IMG/VR virus record: IMGVR_UViG_3300005346_000047
Span: 1 to 28,926 of that record
Direction: 5' to 3' (one strand)
DNA: 28,926 nucleotides
Source of the DNA: a virus
Under the pieces are notes generated by a model. That model had not been told where the DNA came from. It ran no database searches and saw nothing but the letters and a program-made list of their open reading frames with translations. A program made the position numbers and the translations under genes. Positions 1-28,926 of this stretch are shown piece after piece; within the stretch, counting starts at the first letter, position 1; each line of letters begins with the position of its first letter.

Positions 1-35
1 GGCTTGCCAATTAATCTTTCTAGTGCTGTTCTCAT
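1..35 (-). CDS. Start of an unidentified minus-strand gene (partial)
   Basis: The ATG lies at 35-33 on the minus strand and the frame runs off the left edge of the window, giving MRTALERLIGK. A strong ribosome binding site (AAAAGGGAG, plus positions 41-49) sits five bases upstream. The RBS overlaps the end of the Arg-Gly-rich reading frame, so this gene is probably the last visible member of the minus-strand recombination operon. Too little is visible to assign a function. Confidence 0.55.
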   Translation of the reverse strand, partial: MRTALERLIGK

Positions 36-37
36 TT

Positions 38-299
38 TTACTCCCTTTTAATAATTTCTAATTTGCGACCGCGGCAACGGACGCGACCACGACCGCGACC
101 GCGACGACGACGACGACCACGACCACCGCGACCACGACCACGACCACGACCGCGACGACGACCACCGCGACCACGACCACGACCGCGACGACGACAACGA
201 CCACGACCACCGCGACCACGACCACGACCGCGACGACGACAACGACCGCGAACTATTATGGCTTAAGTCACAACCTTTTTTTAATAATGCTTGGTTCAA
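38..299 (-). CDS. Arg-Gly-rich tandem-repeat protein (probably one frameshift)
   Basis: A TTG at 299-297 overlaps the ssb stop codon (TTGA) and opens a frame beginning MNQALLKKGCDLSHNS. After about position 250 that frame turns into an S/W/R repeat. The next frame instead reads a clean Arg-Gly repeat: two perfect copies of RGRCRRRGRGRGRGG plus two variant copies. It then leaves the repeat as GRKLEIIKRE and stops at 40-38, inside the leader of the next gene. Removing one T from the TT at about 251-252 fuses the two into one protein of about 86 residues. This would resemble RGG-box or RG-rich tails that bind nucleic acid, which suits a gene beside ssb. The repeat is open in all six frames, so the frame choice is inference, based on amino-acid type and the position of the stop. 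No hydrophobic or folded segment is visible. Confidence 0.4.
69..252. repeat. GC-rich tandem repeat, 45-bp unit built from GAC/CAC/CGC triplets
   Basis: About 180 bases consist almost only of the triplets GAC, CAC, CGC and AAC on plus (GTC, GTG, GCG and GTT on minus). Two 45-base units at the right end (about 163-252) are perfect copies; the left copies vary in length. No stop codon occurs in any frame. It is much richer in GC than the surrounding sequence and has the look of a repeat that expands by slippage. Confidence 0.85.
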
Positions 300-667
300 A
301 ACGGCACCGAAAAGTTATCGTTTGTTGGCTCTGGCGCTTTATCGTTTGATCCGCCTAGAAATAAAACTTGGTTTGCTATGATGTTTGTCGAGTATCTTTT
401 AACGCCGTCTTTTTCGTAGCTATCAGTTTTCATTTTGCCCTCAACGTAAATCTGCCTGCCCTTGTCTAGGTACTTAACTACGTTTTCTGCCGGTAGGCCA
501 AAAACCGAAACGTTAACCCATTCCGTTTCGCTTTGCTTTTCGCCGTTTGCGTTTTTCCAGCTTTCCGTTACGCCAACACTTAGCCGCGTCCAAGGCTTGC
601 CGTTTGCCGTGTGCTTTAACTCTGGCTTTATCCCTAGGTTTCCAATAAACGTGCATTTGTTTAACAT
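296..667 (-). CDS. ssb: Single-stranded DNA-binding protein
   Basis: The protein is an intact 123 residues. The OB-fold of SSB is recognisable: MLNKCTFIGNLG at the start, then WTRLSVGVTESW, the typical TEWVNVSVFGLPAENVVKYLDKG segment in the middle (residues about 48-71), and IYVEGKMKTDSYEKDGVKR before the last strand. The tail is short and acidic and ends DNFSVPF, a variant of the DDIPF tip that recruits partner proteins. It would coat single-stranded phage DNA during replication and recombination. Its ATG overlaps the stop of the upstream gene (TAATG), indicating translational coupling with the candidate annealing protein, and its own stop overlaps the TTG of the Arg-Gly-rich gene. Being only 123 residues long, it is a phage-type SSB with a reduced linker. 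Confidence 0.95.
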   Translation of the reverse strand: MLNKCTFIGNLGIKPELKHTANGKPWTRLSVGVTESWKNANGEKQSETEWVNVSVFGLPAENVVKYLDKGRQIYVEGKMKTDSYEKDGVKRYSTNIIANQVLFLGGSNDKAPEPTNDNFSVPF

Positions 668-1320
668 TACAGAGTCCTTTCTTTTACGTATTTATTTATT
701 TCGGTTTCGATACTTAAAAACGGCGCGTTTTCTTTTATTAGGTACGTATGAATCTCTTTCATTATTTCAGGCTCTTCAATCGCGTGCTTGTTTTTACAGA
801 TCGCCGCTAGTGCTTGCTTTTGTTTAGCCGTACCCTCGTAAAGCGTAGGCTCTACGTGGTCCATCTCTTCTAATGGTGTAGGCTCATAGCCAGCCATGTT
901 CATGATCCAAGAAAAAGCAATGCGGTAGGCTTTGCCCGTTGCTCTTGTTATAGCCATTGACCGGCGTGCGTATTCTGGCCGTTTCATCCACATCGACTCG
1001 TCCGCGCCACAAATAGCCGACCCGCTACCCACAACCTGGCCGTGACGATCTATTAGATCAACGTGGGCCTCAAACGTACCGTCGTTGTGTCTTGTCACTT
1101 GCCTTTCTTTTGGCAGCACGCGAAGAAACGAGCCGAGCGTTTGCCAGCCTTCAACGTTAACGTATTTTTTCCCGCGCAGGTCCGTGTAGAGTTTTTGCTT
1201 TTCTATTACGTCGCAAAGAAGCGTTGCAATCTTACCGGCAGCGTCAACCTGTTTCTCTGGCGTTAGGTCAATAAACGCTGCGCTAGGTGTTGTCTCTGCG
1301 CTTACTACTAAATCACTCAT
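667..1320 (-). CDS. Candidate single-strand annealing/recombination protein
   Basis: An intact protein of 217 residues. The middle holds conserved-looking blocks: GKKYVNVEGWQTLGSFLRVLP (about 50-70), VDLIDRHGQVVGSGSAICG, and RSMAITRATGKAYRIAFSW followed by MAGYEPTPLEEM (about 120-153). I recognise this block pattern from phage and actinobacterial proteins that are usually left as hypothetical or grouped near recombination genes. No signal peptide or membrane segment is seen. It is translationally coupled to ssb (TAATG) and to a small membrane peptide upstream (ATGA). An SSB-dependent annealing role, like that of ERF or Rad52-type proteins, is inferred from the fold-like pattern and the neighbour, not proven. 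The gene itself is certain; the function is moderate to low in certainty. Confidence 0.6.
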   Translation of the reverse strand: MSDLVVSAETTPSAAFIDLTPEKQVDAAGKIATLLCDVIEKQKLYTDLRGKKYVNVEGWQTLGSFLRVLPKERQVTRHNDGTFEAHVDLIDRHGQVVGSGSAICGADESMWMKRPEYARRSMAITRATGKAYRIAFSWIMNMAGYEPTPLEEMDHVEPTLYEGTAKQKQALAAICKNKHAIEEPEIMKEIHTYLIKENAPFLSIETEINKYVKERTL

Positions 1321-5468: not shown

Positions 5469-5477
5469 GGAGTGAAG

Positions 5478-6710
5478 ATGAGTCACAGAAAAAACCTACG
5501 AGGTGCGATCACCTACGCCGAGCCAAAATCAAAAGAGTATCTTGATAACTACGACAGGATTTTTAGGCATGGAAACAAAGACGGTAAAGATAGCGAGTCT
5601 GCTAGCAGATCCACGACCAATGCAAGAAAACACGACAAGAAAAACCTGGATGCGATCAAAGCGAGTCTTAAGCAGTTCGGACAACGTAAGAACATCGTAG
5701 TGCGTGACGGGATTATTATCGCAGGTAACGGAACGGTCGAGGCAGCTAAACAACTGGGATGGGAAGACATAACAATTGCCGTTGCAGACGACATGAGCGC
5801 GACCGAAGCAAAAGCATTTGCCCTGGCCGATAACCGTACGGCAGAGCTGGCGGTGTGGGATGACGATGTTTTGGGAGAGCAATTGCAAGCTTTGTACGAG
5901 GATGGTTACGCTATTGCCGATATTGGTTTTGATTGGGAAGATAACAAGGCAGAAGGTGGTGGCGGTAATATCGACGACGACGAAGTGCCAGAAGTTGAAG
6001 ATAATGTTTTTGGCGTTAAACGTGGCGATATCTGGCAGCTTGGTGATCACCGGATGATGTGCGGTGATTCGACGAGTAAAGAGGACGTTGATAGGCTTAT
6101 GAACGGCGAGAAGGCTGATATGGTTTTTACTGATCCGCCTTATGGAATTAGTTACGATAATAAAAATCTAAGAGGTAATCTTAAAGGCCAAAACAATTTT
6201 AAAATGATTGAAAACGATGATGTTATTTTAGATATGTCTGTGTTGTTTGGGCTTGATTGCGTTAAGTATGTTTGGGGTGCTAATAATTTTACTCATATCC
6301 TACCTAAAAAAGGTATTTGGCATTGTTGGGACAAAAGAAGTGACAGTGTAGACGATGATAAAAATGTGGATCTTTGCATAGGCTCTCAGGTTGAAATAGT
6401 GTGGGTTAATAAAGATAAAGGATACCAAAGACTTTTTAGAGTTAAACATGCCGGATATATAAACGCCGACGGCGGAAAAAGAGTTCACCCAACCCAAAAG
6501 CCAACCAAGTTAGTGGAACTTTGCTTTGAACATGAAAAAGCTGGAAATAATATAGTTGATCTCTTTCTCGGCTCAGGCTCGACACTAATCGCCTGCGAAA
6601 AGACAAACCGCAAATGTTTCGGCATGGAGATCGACCCGCACTACTGCAGCGTTATAATTAAAAGATGGCAGGAATACACTGGAAAAAAGGCCTGTAAGAC
6701 CAATGGCTAA
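5478..6710 (+). CDS. ParB-N domain/DNA adenine methyltransferase fusion
   Basis: An intact 410-residue protein. ATG 5478 is chosen because GGAG lies five bases upstream; a GTG at 5472 is in frame but sits on the RBS. Residues about 50-150 form a ParB/Srx-like domain (QFGQRKNIVVRDGIIIAGNG, then AAKQLGWEDITIAV and ALADNRTAELAVWDDD). A methyltransferase follows with catalytic DPPYGISYDN at 219-228 and the S-adenosylmethionine-binding DLFLGSGST at about 361-369, the order of the beta class. DPPY points to N6-adenine (N4-cytosine is less likely). The 140 residues between the motifs would hold the target-recognition part. No restriction endonuclease is adjacent, so it is an orphan that may protect phage DNA or mark it for packaging. 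It overlaps terS by eight bases. A parS-like site and a terminator lie in its leader. Confidence 0.92.
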   Translation: MSHRKNLRGAITYAEPKSKEYLDNYDRIFRHGNKDGKDSESASRSTTNARKHDKKNLDAIKASLKQFGQRKNIVVRDGIIIAGNGTVEAAKQLGWEDITIAVADDMSATEAKAFALADNRTAELAVWDDDVLGEQLQALYEDGYAIADIGFDWEDNKAEGGGGNIDDDEVPEVEDNVFGVKRGDIWQLGDHRMMCGDSTSKEDVDRLMNGEKADMVFTDPPYGISYDNKNLRGNLKGQNNFKMIENDDVILDMSVLFGLDCVKYVWGANNFTHILPKKGIWHCWDKRSDSVDDDKNVDLCIGSQVEIVWVNKDKGYQRLFRVKHAGYINADGGKRVHPTQKPTKLVELCFEHEKAGNNIVDLFLGSGSTLIACEKTNRKCFGMEIDPHYCSVIIKRWQEYTGKKACKTNG

Positions 6711-7121
6711 AACAGTAGGACACAACAAAAAATCTAAGGACCTTGGAAGAAAGGAGAATCTGGTAATGGCAAAGGCCGTCCGAAGACGCCTCCAGAACTT
6801 CGTAAGGCCGCAAACCTAACCAAAATTGAAACGCTTCAGAGGCTTGTTAAGTTCCTTCAAATGGACATCTACGGTCTAGAGGAAGTGTTAAAAGATAAGT
6901 CGCGACAAGTGATGGATCACTGGATTGCAAGAATATGTCTTGTCGGGATTAAAGAAGGCGATAACCGTAGACTTGATTTTATGCTGGACCGTTTGTTTGG
7001 CAAGGTGCAACCTCATATCGAGATCAACAACAATCAGTTTAACTTTAGCGGCCTGCCTCGTGACGAAATTATAGCGCGTGGGCAGAGGGCTTTGGAAATA
7101 CTGCAAAAAGAAGAGGACTAA
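6703..7121 (+). CDS. terS: Putative terminase small subunit, one frameshift
   Basis: From ATG 6703 the frame reads MAKTVGHNKKSKDLGRK. A frame change at about 6748-6757 leads to ESGNGKGRPKTPPELRKAAN and a clean run to 7121. Repaired length is about 138 residues. The start is basic and glycine-rich, the middle helical (LQRLVKFLQMDIYGLEEVL), followed by RRLDFMLDRLFGKVQPHIEI, a pattern often seen in small terminase subunits and in proteins of that position. It would bind the packaging site and regulate the large subunit. The terminase large subunit lies two genes downstream. It overlaps the methyltransferase and ends one base before the next ATG. The assignment rests on position and general sequence type. 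Confidence 0.55.
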
Positions 7122-7602
7122 ATGAGCGATCAAGAAAAAACTATTTATGTCCCGGCAGTAACGAGGCTTGCTGTTAAAGAGGATAGTAACTTTATTTATC
7201 ATAGCTGGCTAAAGTCATATCGCGCATCGTGGGCTAAAGGCTCTAACCCTATGCGCTACGTCGACAAAGAAATTTACTATGCTAATCAAAAAGAGATTAT
7301 TAACTACATACTGCAAACAAGTTACGTTATCTGCGCTCACAACCCCGACGATTATTAACCAGATATTTGGCCTATATCGTAGCCGAGCCAAGCGACTACG
7401 GACCCGCAATAATACACTACGTTTTTTGTAAAGCAGCCGTTTAGAAACCTAGGCATCGGAACGATGCTTTTACAGAGAGGCTAAGTCATATACTAATCAC
7501 ACAAACGGAGCTCCAGTGATAGCCACACACGCTACCGGGCCGTTTCATGAAAGCTTGTGTAAGAAATATCGTGCCGTTTTACGATCCGTTTTTAATATTT
7601 AG
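7122..7602 (+). CDS. GNAT-like acetyltransferase fold protein, several frameshifts
   Basis: Start ATG 7122. The first frame reads SNFIYHSWLKSYRASWAKG and YANQKEIINYILQTSYVICA to about 7350. Further on, extra bases (about 7355, 7372, 7424, 7480 and 7578) break the frame. When skipped the chain continues QIFGYIVAEPSDYGPAIIHY, then VFVKQPFRNLGIGTMLLQRA and YDPFFNI, ending at about 7602. RNLGIGTML is the acetyl-CoA-binding motif A of GNAT proteins (R-x-x-G-x-G). Repaired length is about 157 residues. Proteins of this type sit near terminase genes in several podovirus-like phages; their substrate is not known to me. An RBS for the next gene (AGGGG) overlaps its stop. Confidence 0.65.
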
Positions 7603-7613
7603 GGGTTTATTAA

Positions 7614-7857
7614 ATGAAAATGAAAGTATTACGCACAGCGCAAACTATAAAGCTGGGTAAAGAAGACAACATTTTTTTATGGCGACCGCTACGATATCCG
7701 AGCGTTTTATAACCCAAAGATCCAAGCGACCATGGTGCGCATGGAAGATAAGGTGGCAAAGAAGGTGGCGTTTACGACGTTTGCTAACGTTGCTTACTGC
7801 GAAGTCGATGAGTCTGAATTCGTAATCGAAAACGGTAAAAGTGCAAAGAGAAAATGA
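7614..7857 (+). CDS. Hypothetical protein, one frameshift
   Basis: From ATG 7614, with AGGGG eight bases upstream, the frame reads MKMKVLRTAQTIKLGKEDN. With one T less in the seven-T run (about 7673-7679) it continues IFYGDRYDIRAFYNPKIQAT and VFTTFANVAYCEV-like sequence (seen as VAFTTFANVAYCEV), then ends at TGA 7857. Repaired length is 80 residues. It has no membrane segment or signal peptide. It overlaps the terL start by 17 bases, so the two are probably co-translated. I do not recognise a family. Confidence 0.6.
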
Positions 7858-9260
7858 AACGAGAGAGTGGGCTATTAACGTGCTGGCCGAGTGCGAGCGC
7901 CAGTTAAATACGCCTCGCTTAAAGTTTTACGACAACAAGTTTCCAGAGCAAAAAGCCTATATTCTTGACGACTCGCCACGAGTGGGGCTTTTATGTACGA
8001 GAAGAGCTGGCAAGTCGTTTGGCATTGGGCTAAAGTTGTTTCGCGCCGCATTTGCCGAGCCTCAGTGTACGTGCACTTATATCGGCCTAACGCGCAAGAC
8101 AGCTAAAAAGATTATGTGGAAAGATGTTTTTAAAAGCATCGACCGCAAAATGAATCTTGGTTGTAAGTTTAACGAGTCAGAACTAAGCATTACGTGCCCA
8201 AACGGATCCATTATTTATCTAGAGGGCGCAGATAGCGGCAAAGACGAAATGGACAAGGTACTAGGCGGGAAGCTAAAGCTTGTCGTTTATTGACGAAGGC
8301 GGATCGTTTCGTATCGATATGGCTAAGCTATGCTACGAAATGATCGAGCCAGCGTTATCGGATTACGACGGTACGCTTTCGATGGCAGGAACGCCAACCG
8401 ATCTACTTGATTCATTATTTCACAAGATTACTACAGGCAGAGAAGGCGGCTGGACGCATCATGAGTGGGATACGCTAGATAACCCTTACATGCGTGAGGT
8501 TTGGCAAAAACGAATCGAGTTTCTCAAGAAAAACAACCCAGGCATCGAGAAAACGCCGTCTTTCAGGCGTATGTATTTAAAAGAATGGGTTACAGACATT
8601 TCGGCTCTTGTTTACAAGTACAACGAGCAGCGAAATGCTACAGATAAACTACCGCCAGGGCAATACAGTTACGTGCTAGGTGTTGACTTGGGTTGGGACG
8701 ATCCCTCGGCCTTTGTTGTGTGTGCTTTTTCGCCGCACGACAACAACCTGTACGTGATAGAAACCTACAAAGCTTCGAAGATGATTATAAGCGACGTTGC
8801 CGAGAGAATTAGTTATTATACCAAAAAATATGATATTTATAGAACAGTCATAGACAACGCAGCAAAGCAGTCGGTAGAAGAGTTAAAAAGCCGTTATCAA
8901 TTGTCTCTTGTACCGGCTACAAAAACGGGTAAGGCCGAGTTTATCGAAATAATGAACGCCGAGTTAATTCAAGGCAGGATTAAGGTTATAGACTGCGAAG
9001 AAACTTTGGCGTTACGTGACGAGTGGGGATCTCTTATATGGGACGAGCGCTCGGACAAAAGGCAAGAACATCCGGCTTGCGAGAATCATTTATCCGATGC
9101 TGCGCTTTATAGCTGGCGCGAGTGTTATCAATATTTATCCGTTCCGGTGGTAAAGGACCAGAGAAGCGATACAGAAAAGCTAGACGACTGGGAATTAGAA
9201 GAGGCGGAACGAATCGAACAAGAAATGACGCAACCGTTTTGGGAAAGGGATTGGGGTTGA
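7841..9260 (+). CDS. terL: Terminase large subunit, one frameshift
   Basis: The packaging motor ATPase and nuclease. Start GTG 7841. Walker A is TRRAGKSFG at residues 53-61. One extra T at about 8287-8289 breaks the frame exactly in Walker B, which repairs to LKLVVIDEGGSFRIDM. The coupling motif is TLSMAGTPTD. The RNase H-like nuclease follows with VLGVDLGWDDPSAFVV (first Asp), TVIDNAAKQSVEEL (second) and NHLSDAALYSWRE (third). Repaired length is 472 residues, normal for the family. It acts with terS and the portal to fill the capsid. Its stop overlaps the TTG start of the next small gene. No split gene or intron is suspected; the single break is in TTT. Confidence 0.95.
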
Positions 9261-9469
9261 AAATAGAATACGTAAGAGCATTAATTGATGTTTGTATTGA
9301 AAAACGAGTAAGCCGTATGAAGCTGGGCGATATAGATTTTGACCTAGACCTACCACCAACACCAGAGGCTATGCGTGCTGCTGAGGAGATGGCAGAAATT
9401 ATGAAAAGCCAGAGGACGGCAACTGACGAAGATATACTAATGAATCCCATGGCTGGATTGGAAGGATAA
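9257..9469 (+). CDS. Hypothetical 70-residue acidic protein
   Basis: Start TTG 9257 overlaps the terL stop. Reads MKIEYVRALIDVCIEKRVSR, then LGDIDFDLDLPPTPEAMRAA and ends NPMAGLEG. Intact, acidic, largely helical, no signal or membrane part. Coupled to terL and followed six bases later by the portal start. It may be a small accessory of packaging or head assembly by position only; no family recognised. Confidence 0.6.
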   Translation: MKIEYVRALIDVCIEKRVSRMKLGDIDFDLDLPPTPEAMRAAEEMAEIMKSQRTATDEDILMNPMAGLEG

Positions 9470-9474
9470 AACTA

Positions 9475-11415
9475 ATGCCTATTACATCGACCCCAAACGT
9501 GCCGGTGGAGACATACAACACGCAGCAAAATAAAGGCATAAAAGCCTAAGACTAAGTGGTGGGAGCAACCTGAAGAGGAGATGCACACGCACGTCTGGGC
9601 TACGATTAAAAACATCCGCAAACATCAGGAGTACAGGTCAACGAACAACCTAAAGTTTGCTAGGCTTTACTCTAATATGGAGATCACATCGCTATCGGGT
9701 GGTCTTTTTAATAGGACGAACGACGCGCAGAACTTTAACGGTCAAACCGACGTTACCTACAACGTTATTAAAAGTTAGTATCGATACGGCTAGTAGTAAA
9801 ATAATCAAAGTACCAAGACCACGGCCTTTCTTTTTAACCGAAGGCGCAAGCTGGGATTTGCAACAGCGGGCCAAGATGCTTACCAAGTTTTTTCCAGGGC
9901 TTATACGAAAAAATGGGTACGGGTACGGGAGAAGACCGCACGTTCTGGGGTATCGGAAGGCAGTGTTTTGTCGATGCCTGTATTTTTGGTACTGGCCCGG
10001 TTCATTTATTTCAAGACGACAACGAGGTAAAAGCCGAGCGTAACTTTGTCGATGAGATTTTAGTCGACGACGCCGAAGGTAGATATAGAAACCCACGGCA
10101 GATACATAGGGTAAAGCTAATTTTTAGAGAGGTTTTATTCGATCTTTTCCCGGCTAAATATCACAACGCCATTGCTGCTGCCCCAAGTGGCCTGCAAGGA
10201 GATATGGAATCACGCTCTACGGCGGATATGATTCAAGTCGCAGAAAGCTGGCATTTACCAAGTGGCCCGAACAGTGACGATGGCCGCTACTGCATGTCGA
10301 TAGAAAACTGTACTTTGGCTGTCGATAAGTACGAAAAACAATACTTCCCGTTTCTATTCCAACGCTGGTCGTTGCATCCTCTTGGCTTTTACGGCAGGGG
10401 ATTAGCCGAAGAGTTAATCGGTATACAGCTAGAAATTAACAAAACACTTAGAAACATTCAGCTAGCACAACACCTAGTAGCCGTCCCGCAAGTTTGGCTA
10501 GACGTTAGCAGCAAGATCCCAGGTAAAAAGATCAATAACGAAATTGGCGGTATTAAGTATTACCGTGGCACTGGACCACAGTTTTACACTCCACAGGCAA
10601 TGAGTGGCGAGATATACAATCATCTTGAGACGCTTTACAGGAAGGCTTACGAGATTACGGGTATTTCGCTGATGAGCGCTACCAGTCAAAAGCCAAGTGG
10701 CCTTGATAGTGGTCGGGCAATCCGTGAGTACAAGGATATACAGACCGAGCGTTTTGCTTTAACTGAAAACATGTACGAAGACTTTTACATGGAAGCTACG
10801 TATATGGTTTTAGACATGCTAAGGGATATGGTAGCCGAAGGCAAAAATCCAACGATTAGGGTTAAAGATGGCTCATTCTCCCAAGAGATTAAATTTAAAG
10901 ACGTTGATATCCCGGACGACAAAATTTCAATTAGGGCATATCCAACAAACTTTCTGCCATCAACACCAGCGGGAAAGTTTCAAACTGTTCAGGAGCTCGT
11001 CCAGGCTGGTTTTTATACGCAAGAAGAGGCATTAGACTTACTAGACTTTCCCGACTTGGCTAAAGCCAACAAGATCAAGCTAGGCTCTCGTGACGCAGTT
11101 ATTAGGGTTATAGAGCACAATATTAAAAACGCTGGTAAAAGATTACATTAGTCCTGATTCCGAGGATGAATTTAGAGTTTGCAAGAGAGATGGCACAAAC
11201 ATACATGCTCCGCGGACTTGCAGAACAACATGCCGGAGGACAAACTAGACGTCTTGCGTAAGTTTCAAGATCAAGTCGAGAGTATAATCGAGCAGCAAAT
11301 GCCACCGGCAATGCCACCGGCAATGCCAGCCGAACCATTAGCATCCGGTCAGGATATGACCGCTTTAGGTGTACCGGAAGCGCCACCCGTAAGTGATTTA
11401 ATGCCACAAGGCTAA
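9475..11415 (+). CDS. Portal protein, several frameshifts
   Basis: The dodecameric vertex through which DNA enters and leaves the head. The first frame from ATG 9475 is MPITSTPNVPVETYNTQQNK. Extra bases at about 9540, 9772 and 9890 and near 11140-11230 break it; between them the frames are clean, the longest being 9913-11151. Typical portal parts are RFFLTEGASW-like sequence around 9830, then GIGRQCFVDACIFGTGPVHL, FLFQRWSLHPLGFYGRGLAE, IQLEINKTLRNIQLAQHL and the C-terminal SPDSEDEF and PEDKLDVLRKFQDQVESI. Repaired length is about 640 residues, as for podovirus-like portals. The C-terminus is Pro/Met-rich (two MPPA copies) and ends LMPQG. It lies between terL and scaffold, the usual order. Confidence 0.88.
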
Positions 11416-11445
11416 AGATACTAAATAAACGTAGGGAGATACTTT

Positions 11446-12344
11446 ATGCTACAAGAGGCAACCAGCACCGAGGCGACGGCGCCCGAAGGTCACGAGAATA
11501 CGGCCCCACAACAAGAACAGGCGAGCGAAGCTATCGAGCAGCAGCCTGGCGAGTCAAACGTCGACTTTGCCAAGCGGTTTGCGGCTTTAACACGGCGCGA
11601 GAGGGAGATACATCGCCGCCAACAAGAGTTTTCGCAAAAAGAAAAAGAGTTCGGGGAAAAATACTCCAAGTACGAGCAGTGGGAAAAGGCAAGAGAAAAT
11701 GCTAAACTTGATCCGTTAGGGTTTTTGCAGGCTAACGGGTTATCTTACAAAGAGATTACCGACAAAATATTAGAAGACGATAATCTAACCGACGAGCAAA
11801 AACTTAGAGAGAATTGCCGACGCCAAATTTGAACAAATACAAAAAAAGAAGACAAGAGGCAGAAAACGAAGCGTAGACGGCAAGAACGAGAAAAAGACCG
11901 AGCAAGAGGCTAAAGATCAAGAGCTAATCGACCGCTATAAGAACCAAATAAATCAAGCCGTGGCAGATAAACCAGAGTACAAGTTTATCAACCATGAGGG
12001 TGAAGCCGCTAGGGACTTGGTTTTTGTAGGTAGCAGCCGAGCATTACGACCGTACGGGGGAGGTGATAGACCCTAACGTTGCGGCCAAACATGTTGAGGC
12101 TTATATCGAAAAAAGATATAAAGAAGCGTATAAGTTATTAAACACCGAAGATTTGGCCTCAGATGAGACACAACAAGAGGTAACAGAGCCACAGTCATTT
12201 GCTCCCAAGACGCTTACAAATCGGTCAACCTTATCTGCGTCCCCGTCTTCTAGCTCGGAAACCTCATCGGGCTACTTATCAGACGAGGAGTCAAAAAGGC
12301 GATCGGCTGAGATGTTGAGGAAAGCGTTAGCTTCTGGCGGTTAG
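11446..12344 (+). CDS. Putative scaffolding protein, several frameshifts
   Basis: Start ATG 11446, with AGGGAGA upstream. The N-terminal 45 residues are Glu/Gln/Ala-rich and probably disordered. They are followed by a charged helix RREREIHRRQQEFSQKEKEF and PLGFLQANGLSYKEITDKIL. Breaks lie at about 11808, 11838-11885 and 12030; the joined frames run AKDQELIDRYKNQINQAVAD, EAARDLVFV, VIDPNVAAKHVEAYIEKRYK, then a Ser-rich linker and the C-terminus RRSAEMLRKALASGG. Repaired length is about 297 residues. Strong charge, coiled-coil character and position between portal and capsid gene are those of a scaffold, which guides shell assembly and is later removed. No sequence family named with certainty. 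Confidence 0.65.
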
Positions 12345-26740: not shown

Positions 26741-28743
26741 ATGAGTTACGTATCTAAAAACCCACGGTTTAACAGCCAAATACTAACAGATCAGGGAACG
26801 AGTAGCGTTGACGATCCGGCTAGCGGCTCGCACAAAGTCGTAAACCGTAACGGTTTACTGTACATGCGAGATAGCAGCGGAAACGAGACGGCTATAGGCT
26901 CTGCTGGCAGCACGGGTGGTGTTAACTACATCGAAAACCCTAACGCCGAAACCGGAACGGCGGGCTGGGCTACTTACGCAGATGCGGCGGCGGCTACTCC
27001 TGCCGACGGTACGGGCGGTACGGCTAACGTAACCTGGACGCGAAACACGACAGCAGCCGAGATACTTCGCGGCGACGCAAGTTTTGAGTTAACGGTAGAC
27101 GCTGCTGATAGGCAAGGCGAAGGCGTTAGCTATGATTTTACAATTGATCGCGCAGATCAAAACAAGGTTTTAGGCATTTGGTTTGACGTTGACGCTACCG
27201 ACGCTAACTACGCAGACGATGACTTGCAGGTTTTTATTTACGACAAAGATCAGTCGCAAGTTATTACGCCTACCTTCACCTACTAACGGCTATAAGATTA
27301 AGGGCAATAAATACCGTCATAGAATAGCGTTTGCTCCTTACGATACGTCAAGCAACGACTACAGGCTAATCATTCACGTAGCCTCTACAAATGCCAGTGG
27401 TTACTCGGTTTACTTCGACAACTTCGAGGTAGGCCCAGGCCGTTCTTTTGCTGGGTTTGATGGGATATGGAAAACATATACCGAGTCGGATGTAGTTGTT
27501 ACTTGTTCAGCCGGTTCAATAGCGAATTACAGAGCCGAGTTTCAGCCATACAAAACAACTAACGGTAAATGGCGTTTAACTTTCAACTTTTACTTTACTC
27601 ACCCTAGTTCAAATGCCTACACAGTCACTATTCCAGACATATTAACACCAATTGGACTATTCCAATCTGCAAGTTTCAAATCCAACGTTAGTTCTGTTTA
27701 CGGTGATGCAAGATTTAATACAAACGCAAACACGGTAACCGTGACGACTACTGCAAATACTACCTCAACTATAATAAGTGGTGACGTGGCTCTAGCCTCA
27801 AAACCCACATGGGCCGACTTCGACCCAATCGCCACGATTTATCCGACTAGTGAGGATTTGGCTTTAGGCCCGATAACAAACAAAACAGTAACTCCAACAA
27901 ACTTCGGCACTATCGGCAACGATAAAATAAACCTTTTCAGGATAGGCAATAAATTAAGAGTTGATGGCCTGTTTCAAGCTGGCACGGCGGCAGGTTCGCC
28001 TTACTTCCAACTTCCTTCAGGTCTAACGGTTGACTCTGATTATTATGATGCTGGCAGCACGACAAGAGTTGGAACGTGGTCTAAAATTAAGAATGCTTCA
28101 GGCGCAGTAAATTATACTGACACGGCATACAATGGCGCTTGTTATACGGCTATCACGACCGAACAAGATAAAATCAGAATTGGATACGAAAACCAATCGG
28201 GACTTTACTCAAACAATCAACCTTTAGGAAATAACGATTGGCTTTCATTTAGCTTTGAAGTTTATATCGAAGAGTGGCGGGATATTGGCCAAGTCCCCCC
28301 AATCGGGCTTGAGATTGCGGCTAATGGTAGTCCGGGGGTTGATTAAGTCTTACAAAGAGTCAACAGAGACTATAACGATGACATTTAATGGAACTGGTGC
28401 GGCAAGTACAGTTGACGTTGATGTTTTATTCACTAAGGTTGGTAGGCAAGTAACCATGACTATTCCAGCATTTAATGGAACAAGTCGAACGACATCAACT
28501 TTTTTATCTGGGCCAATTCCTACGGCGTATCTGCCAGCTTCTCCAGCTATACAGATAAAGAGAGGTTTCTATATGCGTAATAATGGAGCCCTTGACACAA
28601 CATCAATAGGAGCTATTGAAATACGGACGGTTGGAGATCTTTATATATATCGAGACCTTCCAGTAGGCTCAAATGCTTTTACCAACACAACAAGTTGCGG
28701 TTTAGAATATGGTGCAAGTATCACCTATACAGCAGCGGAGTGA
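26741..28743 (+). CDS. Tail fiber/receptor-binding protein with jelly-roll-like module, two frameshifts
   Basis: Start ATG 26741 with AAGGA. The N-terminus MSYVSKNPRFNSQILTDQGT and the short collar RNGLLYMRDSSGNETAIGS are those of fibers that attach to the tail. Then comes a module like carbohydrate-binding jelly rolls: NYIENPNAETGTAGWATYAD, ASFELTVDAADRQGEGVSYD, then HRIAFAPYDTSSNDYRLIIH and YSVYFDNFEVGPG. A break lies at about 27270-27290. Two or three further beta modules follow (KWRLTFNFYFTHPSS; KINLFRIGNKLRVDGLFQAG), another break in GGGGG at 28335-28339, then a last module (TITMTFNGTG, GRQVTMTIPAFNGTSRTTST) to TGA 28743. Repaired length is about 666 residues. It is the best receptor-binding candidate. 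A lipoprotein gene follows almost without gap. Confidence 0.78.
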
Positions 28744-28745
28744 TG

Positions 28746-28926
28746 ATGAAACCCCTACTCTTAACACTACTAGCCGTTAGCTGCGCTACGGAAAAAACCT
28801 CAAAGCCGGTGTTTGATCCGGCTAAGGTTATTGCCGTACAAAACGAGTTGATCTTAAGTCTTAAAGAAAAAGAAGCTGATAACCGTGGTTTTCTTACAGG
28901 CCTTTTAAACGAAGGCGATTCTTTTT
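28746..28926 (+). CDS. Small lipoprotein, possible outer spanin (partial)
   Basis: The frame from ATG 28746 (GGAG five bases upstream; a second ATG at 28743 is in frame) reads MKPLLLTLLAVSCATEKTSK and runs off the right edge after about 60 residues. LLAVSC is a lipobox; the Cys at residue 13 would be lipidated by the host, making this an outer-membrane lipoprotein. After it the chain is polar and helical (VIAVQNELILSLKEKEADN). A small lipoprotein at the end of a phage late operon is often an outer spanin that fuses the membranes during lysis. No inner spanin is visible, and the M15 endolysin is 26 kb away, so the role is tentative. Confidence 0.6.
   Translation, partial: MKPLLLTLLAVSCATEKTSKPVFDPAKVIAVQNELILSLKEKEADNRGFLTGLLNEGDSF

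Follow-up and report, generated by a model that had tools for sequence, protein, structure and literature searches.

The ssb locus and its tandem repeat

The window, which comprises the whole virus record IMGVR_UViG_3300005346_000047 (28,926 bases), clearly derives from a tailed virus (phage), as judged from its predicted SSB, terminase large subunit, portal-like protein, ParB-methyltransferase fusion and endolysin. Near position 1, a gene of family phrog_19042, ssb, a repeat array (251-82) and the start of a further gene follow one another in this order on the minus strand. The features of this region are:

1..35, minus strand: start of the next gene (ATG 35-33; MRTALERLIGKP...), assigned from the sequence
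41..262, minus strand: Arg-Gly (RG) open frame of 74 codons, startless (AIIVRGRCRRRGRGRGRGG...KLEIIKRE; next stop TAA 40-38)
48..299, minus strand: competing complete ORF of 83 aa (TTG 299, overlapping the ssb stop; MNQALLKKGCDLSHNSS, then Arg-Ser-Trp repeats; stop 50-48)
82..251: 45-base tandem repeat array (Tandem Repeats Finder, 3.9 copies, score 263; codon-wise unit alignment)
248..265, minus strand: interval in which one extra base would part the TTG-started and RG frames, in a contig with an insertion bias
296..667, minus strand: ssb (Pfam SSB, 1.7e-30; phrog_44, 8.1e-42; stop 298-296)
667..1320, minus strand: gene upstream of ssb (phrog_19042, 4.6e-16; function unknown)

The phrog_19042 gene and the ssb start overlap by one base, at 667; by its position and general look only, the former may be a recombination-type gene. 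The SSB of the window ends in its own NDNFSVPF tail. A strong AAAGGGAG site (48-41) precedes ATG 35 and overlaps the end of the RG frame. The rest of the gene that starts there probably lies in a missing stretch between both contig ends; at the far end a lipoprotein-like small gene starts (28741-28926) and is cut off. Elsewhere in the window, a ParB-like domain is fused to an N6/N4 DNA methyltransferase (5472-6710), as in phrog_498.

The array is by far the strongest tandem repeat in the window and, as DNA, far beyond chance. The first-pass annotation had described a 45-base repeat with two matching Arg-Gly units and two variants, which agrees with our unit alignment. The units measure 45, 45, 39 and ~45 bases, corresponding to 15, 15, 13 and ~15 codons of the RG frame, and all length changes between them are multiples of three. 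Units 1 and 2 share the reading RGRCRRRGRGRGRGG despite a one-base difference (CGC/CGT), unit 3 (39 bases) reads RRRGRGRGRGRGG, and the degenerate unit 4 reads RGRRRRRGRGRGRVRCRGRK, keeps RCRGR with TGC/CGC codons and is followed by LEIIKRE and the TAA at 40-38. Differences between copies fall on third positions of the RG frame (CGC/CGT, synonymous) or on first positions (Cys/Arg or Arg/Gly). The codons of the array (CGT 23, CGC 12, GGT 23) are unlike the Arg usage of the genome, half of which is AGA/AGG, and therefore indicate a recent homogenised expansion. On the minus strand the array carries GG runs with a four-base spacing. Since its RNA fold was no better than that of shuffled sequences (z -0.41) and no Rfam match to the array was found, a structured-RNA role is not supported.

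Reading frames across the array

As the first-pass annotation had stated, the array is open in all six frames. The RG frame reads AIIVRGRCRRRGRGRGRGG...RVRCRGRKLEIIKRE, contains 36 Arg and 23 Gly among its 74 amino acids as well as multiple RG/RGG motifs, and would give a product with a charge of ~+36 and a pI of ~12. The annotation had also placed a KLEIIKRE C-terminus in the leader of the next gene, and the frame indeed ends (KRE, TAA 40-38) within the ribosome-binding site of the ATG at 35, which is a typical coupled layout. What had been left unsaid is that the RG frame is itself startless: no ATG, GTG or TTG was found between 262 and 41, and TAA 265-263 closes the frame upstream. Taken literally, the contig sequence contains no gene for an RG protein. 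At E-values up to 1, no Pfam or PHROGs family matched the RG product, although low complexity weakens this test.

On the minus strand, only the frame of TTG 299 has a start ahead of the array, and it never enters the RG frame; its MNQALLKKGCDLSHNSS head was found at the ssb stop, in the neighbouring frame, as previously described. Programmed frameshifting by -1 or +1 at the A7 run (TTA TTA AAA AAA GGT) was considered and rejected, since both shifted frames stop (TGA or TAA) before the array. On the plus strand, an Arg-Pro repeat frame (63-266) has a TTG start and a stop and the worst overall codon score.

Synonymous scores per codon were 0.054 for the RG frame, -0.056 for the Arg-Ser-Trp frame and 0.035 for the plus-strand Asp-His frame. 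The whole-window codon model favours the Asp-His frame, which is also startless. Codon usage was thus not decisive as a frame test.

Related viruses and one-base insertions

A comparison of the frame in related genomes, as proposed in the first-pass annotation, was carried out; among 11 ssb loci plus three sister-lineage contigs, from a collection that may omit the records nearest to the window, none has an RG protein beside ssb. No RG frame was found in the 11 ssb loci of viral contigs (L003-L013, ssb 22-52% identity), and no RG stretch in two sister-lineage contigs (G008 and G010, ssb 51%), in the first of which an opposite-strand gene comes after ssb. In the third (G004, terminase ~70%, ssb more distant), no RG protein follows ssb. 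The frame and its protein cannot be proved, because no related virus bearing the array was found.

Searches with DNA patterns for RGRGRGGRG gave 93 stretches in viral contigs and 23 in bacterial genomes, nearly all of them apparently off-frame in GC-rich genes or pure hexamer repeats. The one clear protein among these matches was a planctomycete transcription terminator Rho (L134:6498-7823), whose N-terminus forms a long Gly and RG/RGG tail. No viral contig matched the patterns for the C-terminus (GRKLEIIKRE) or the N-terminus (NQALLKKGCD), a search of phage records with the DNA of the region returned nothing beyond a 34-base chance match, and a literature search combining phage, RGG and SSB found no relevant paper.

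The reliability of the contig was assessed against two viral contigs (L107 and L108; 97% terminase protein identity, ~89-90% DNA identity) that jointly align to 6558-11671. Over 4.06 kb, the window differs from L107 by 13 single-base insertions, one two-base and one six-base insertion, and one single-base deletion; L108 confirms most of the insertions that it covers and reveals five more at 7353-7580. In total, ~18 single-base insertions relative to these contigs split the terminase and portal genes between 7353 and 11310. Because the 477-aa terminase and the 640-aa portal are unbroken in L107 where those of the window are split, insertion error is the likely cause. The primase, the capsid region and the tail genes of the window look similarly split.

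At the rate of 13 insertions in 4.06 kb, ~0.8 would be expected per 262 bases, and in a contig so prone to insertions the missing start of the RG frame is weak evidence against a gene. The first-pass annotation had named an accurately sequenced Arg-Gly frame without a start as grounds for rejection; the frame is startless in the contig as written, but this contig holds one-base insertions able to cause it. Conversely, the insertion rate is no proof of an RG gene, as the insertions occur in clusters and no break is seen in ssb and its neighbour, the 1 kb next to the array.

A candidate Arg-Gly repeat gene in the ssb operon

The likeliest explanation, at an even chance, is that the array belongs to the gene of a lineage-specific, recently expanded RG-repeat protein that binds nucleic acids. 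Several observations argue for this gene, whose position and strand are as expected for a short gene of a tightly packed ssb operon. While ssb and its upstream gene overlap, ~260 bases would otherwise stand empty before the next gene on the same strand. The stop of the RG frame sits in the ribosome-binding site of that gene, copy differences are synonymous or Arg/Cys/Gly swaps, lengths change by threes, and a single surplus base parts the TTG frame from the RG frame in an insertion-rich contig. The length changes count for less, because a triplet-like DNA repeat is expected to give them too, and the clustering of the insertions weakens the last point. The startless frame with its in-frame TAA, the failure of codon usage to pick it and the lack of an RG protein in relatives, Pfam and PHROGs speak against the gene.

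The same observations bear on a reading of the array as a non-coding or neutral simple repeat, an intergenic hexamer or triplet expansion that is idle or acts as DNA or RNA. It would account for six open frames (trivially so) of which the best is startless, for an array that was kept at this place in no relative examined, and for codons that are nearly all CGT, CGC and GGT. However, a 260-base gap would be unusual within this operon, the RG reading stops exactly at the next ribosome-binding site, and the fold and Rfam results disfavour a structured RNA; we regard this explanation as possible, if doubtful.

Frames other than RG are unlikely to be the coding one even when taken jointly. That the complete Arg-Ser-Trp ORF is real as written seems very unlikely: it has the sole minus-strand start before the array and overlaps the ssb stop in the manner of coupled genes, but its TTG lacks a preceding Shine-Dalgarno-like site, and in this frame the copies differ mainly by replacements (Trp/Arg, Ser/Pro). 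It is also hard to imagine a working protein built largely from Ser, Trp and Arg, and the contig is insertion-prone. Coding on the plus strand is most improbable, since the flanking genes on both sides lie on the minus strand; the start and stop of the Arg-Pro frame are offset by its codon score, and the codon model's preference for the Asp-His frame by its missing start.

If the array forms the bulk of a small virus gene of the ssb operon that is specific to this lineage and read in the minus-strand RG frame, we infer that the start of this gene would lie within 299-262, cut from the RG frame by a one-base insertion that most likely arose as an error of sequencing or assembly. The repeat number would have grown through recent duplication. 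The product, an RG-repeat peptide of ~75-90 residues, would be disordered and strongly basic and, by analogy with RG-rich domains, probably binds DNA or RNA if translated. Binding to ssDNA or RNA would be non-specific, by charge and by Arg contacts or stacking, and the simplest role beside ssb would be to load, cluster or shield nucleic acid alongside SSB.

RG/RGG (GAR) domains resemble the RG frame in their Arg-Gly dipeptide repeats, strong positive charge and low complexity, but in most cases form the tail of a larger protein that has a folded domain, whereas the RG frame makes up nearly the whole candidate protein and has interspersed Cys. Protamine-like viral core proteins are small and very Arg-rich and bind DNA by charge; they act in the packaged genomes of other viruses, while the candidate gene sits with replication genes of a tailed phage. 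The planctomycete Rho provides a bacterial example of an RGRGGRGR stretch on a nucleic-acid-binding protein, and a reminder that bacteria use such tails; there, however, the RGG N-terminus is fused to Rho with a Gly-rich lead, as opposed to a stand-alone virus peptide. Phase separation of disordered Rho regions has been reported in Bacteroides (PMC10284900, PMC13269538), as have condensation of bacterial SSB and a disordered linker of E. coli SSB (PMC11947617, PMC12143593). Such physics thus occurs in bacteria, and condensation by the RG peptide or a partnership with SSB is suggested by analogy; SSB is the neighbouring gene here, but the known E. coli system has no RG partner. That a tailed phage makes a stand-alone Arg-Gly repeat protein from its ssb operon which, together with SSB, condenses or bundles ssDNA or RNA at viral replication sites is quite unlikely.

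In a single error-prone contig, where a tandem repeat opens all six frames, strains must be compared before an appealing repeat protein is accepted. If translated, the RG frame would give a phage replication operon a stand-alone Arg-Gly repeat protein and, if true, such a protein would offer a simple natural test of RG-driven clustering at a phage SSB.
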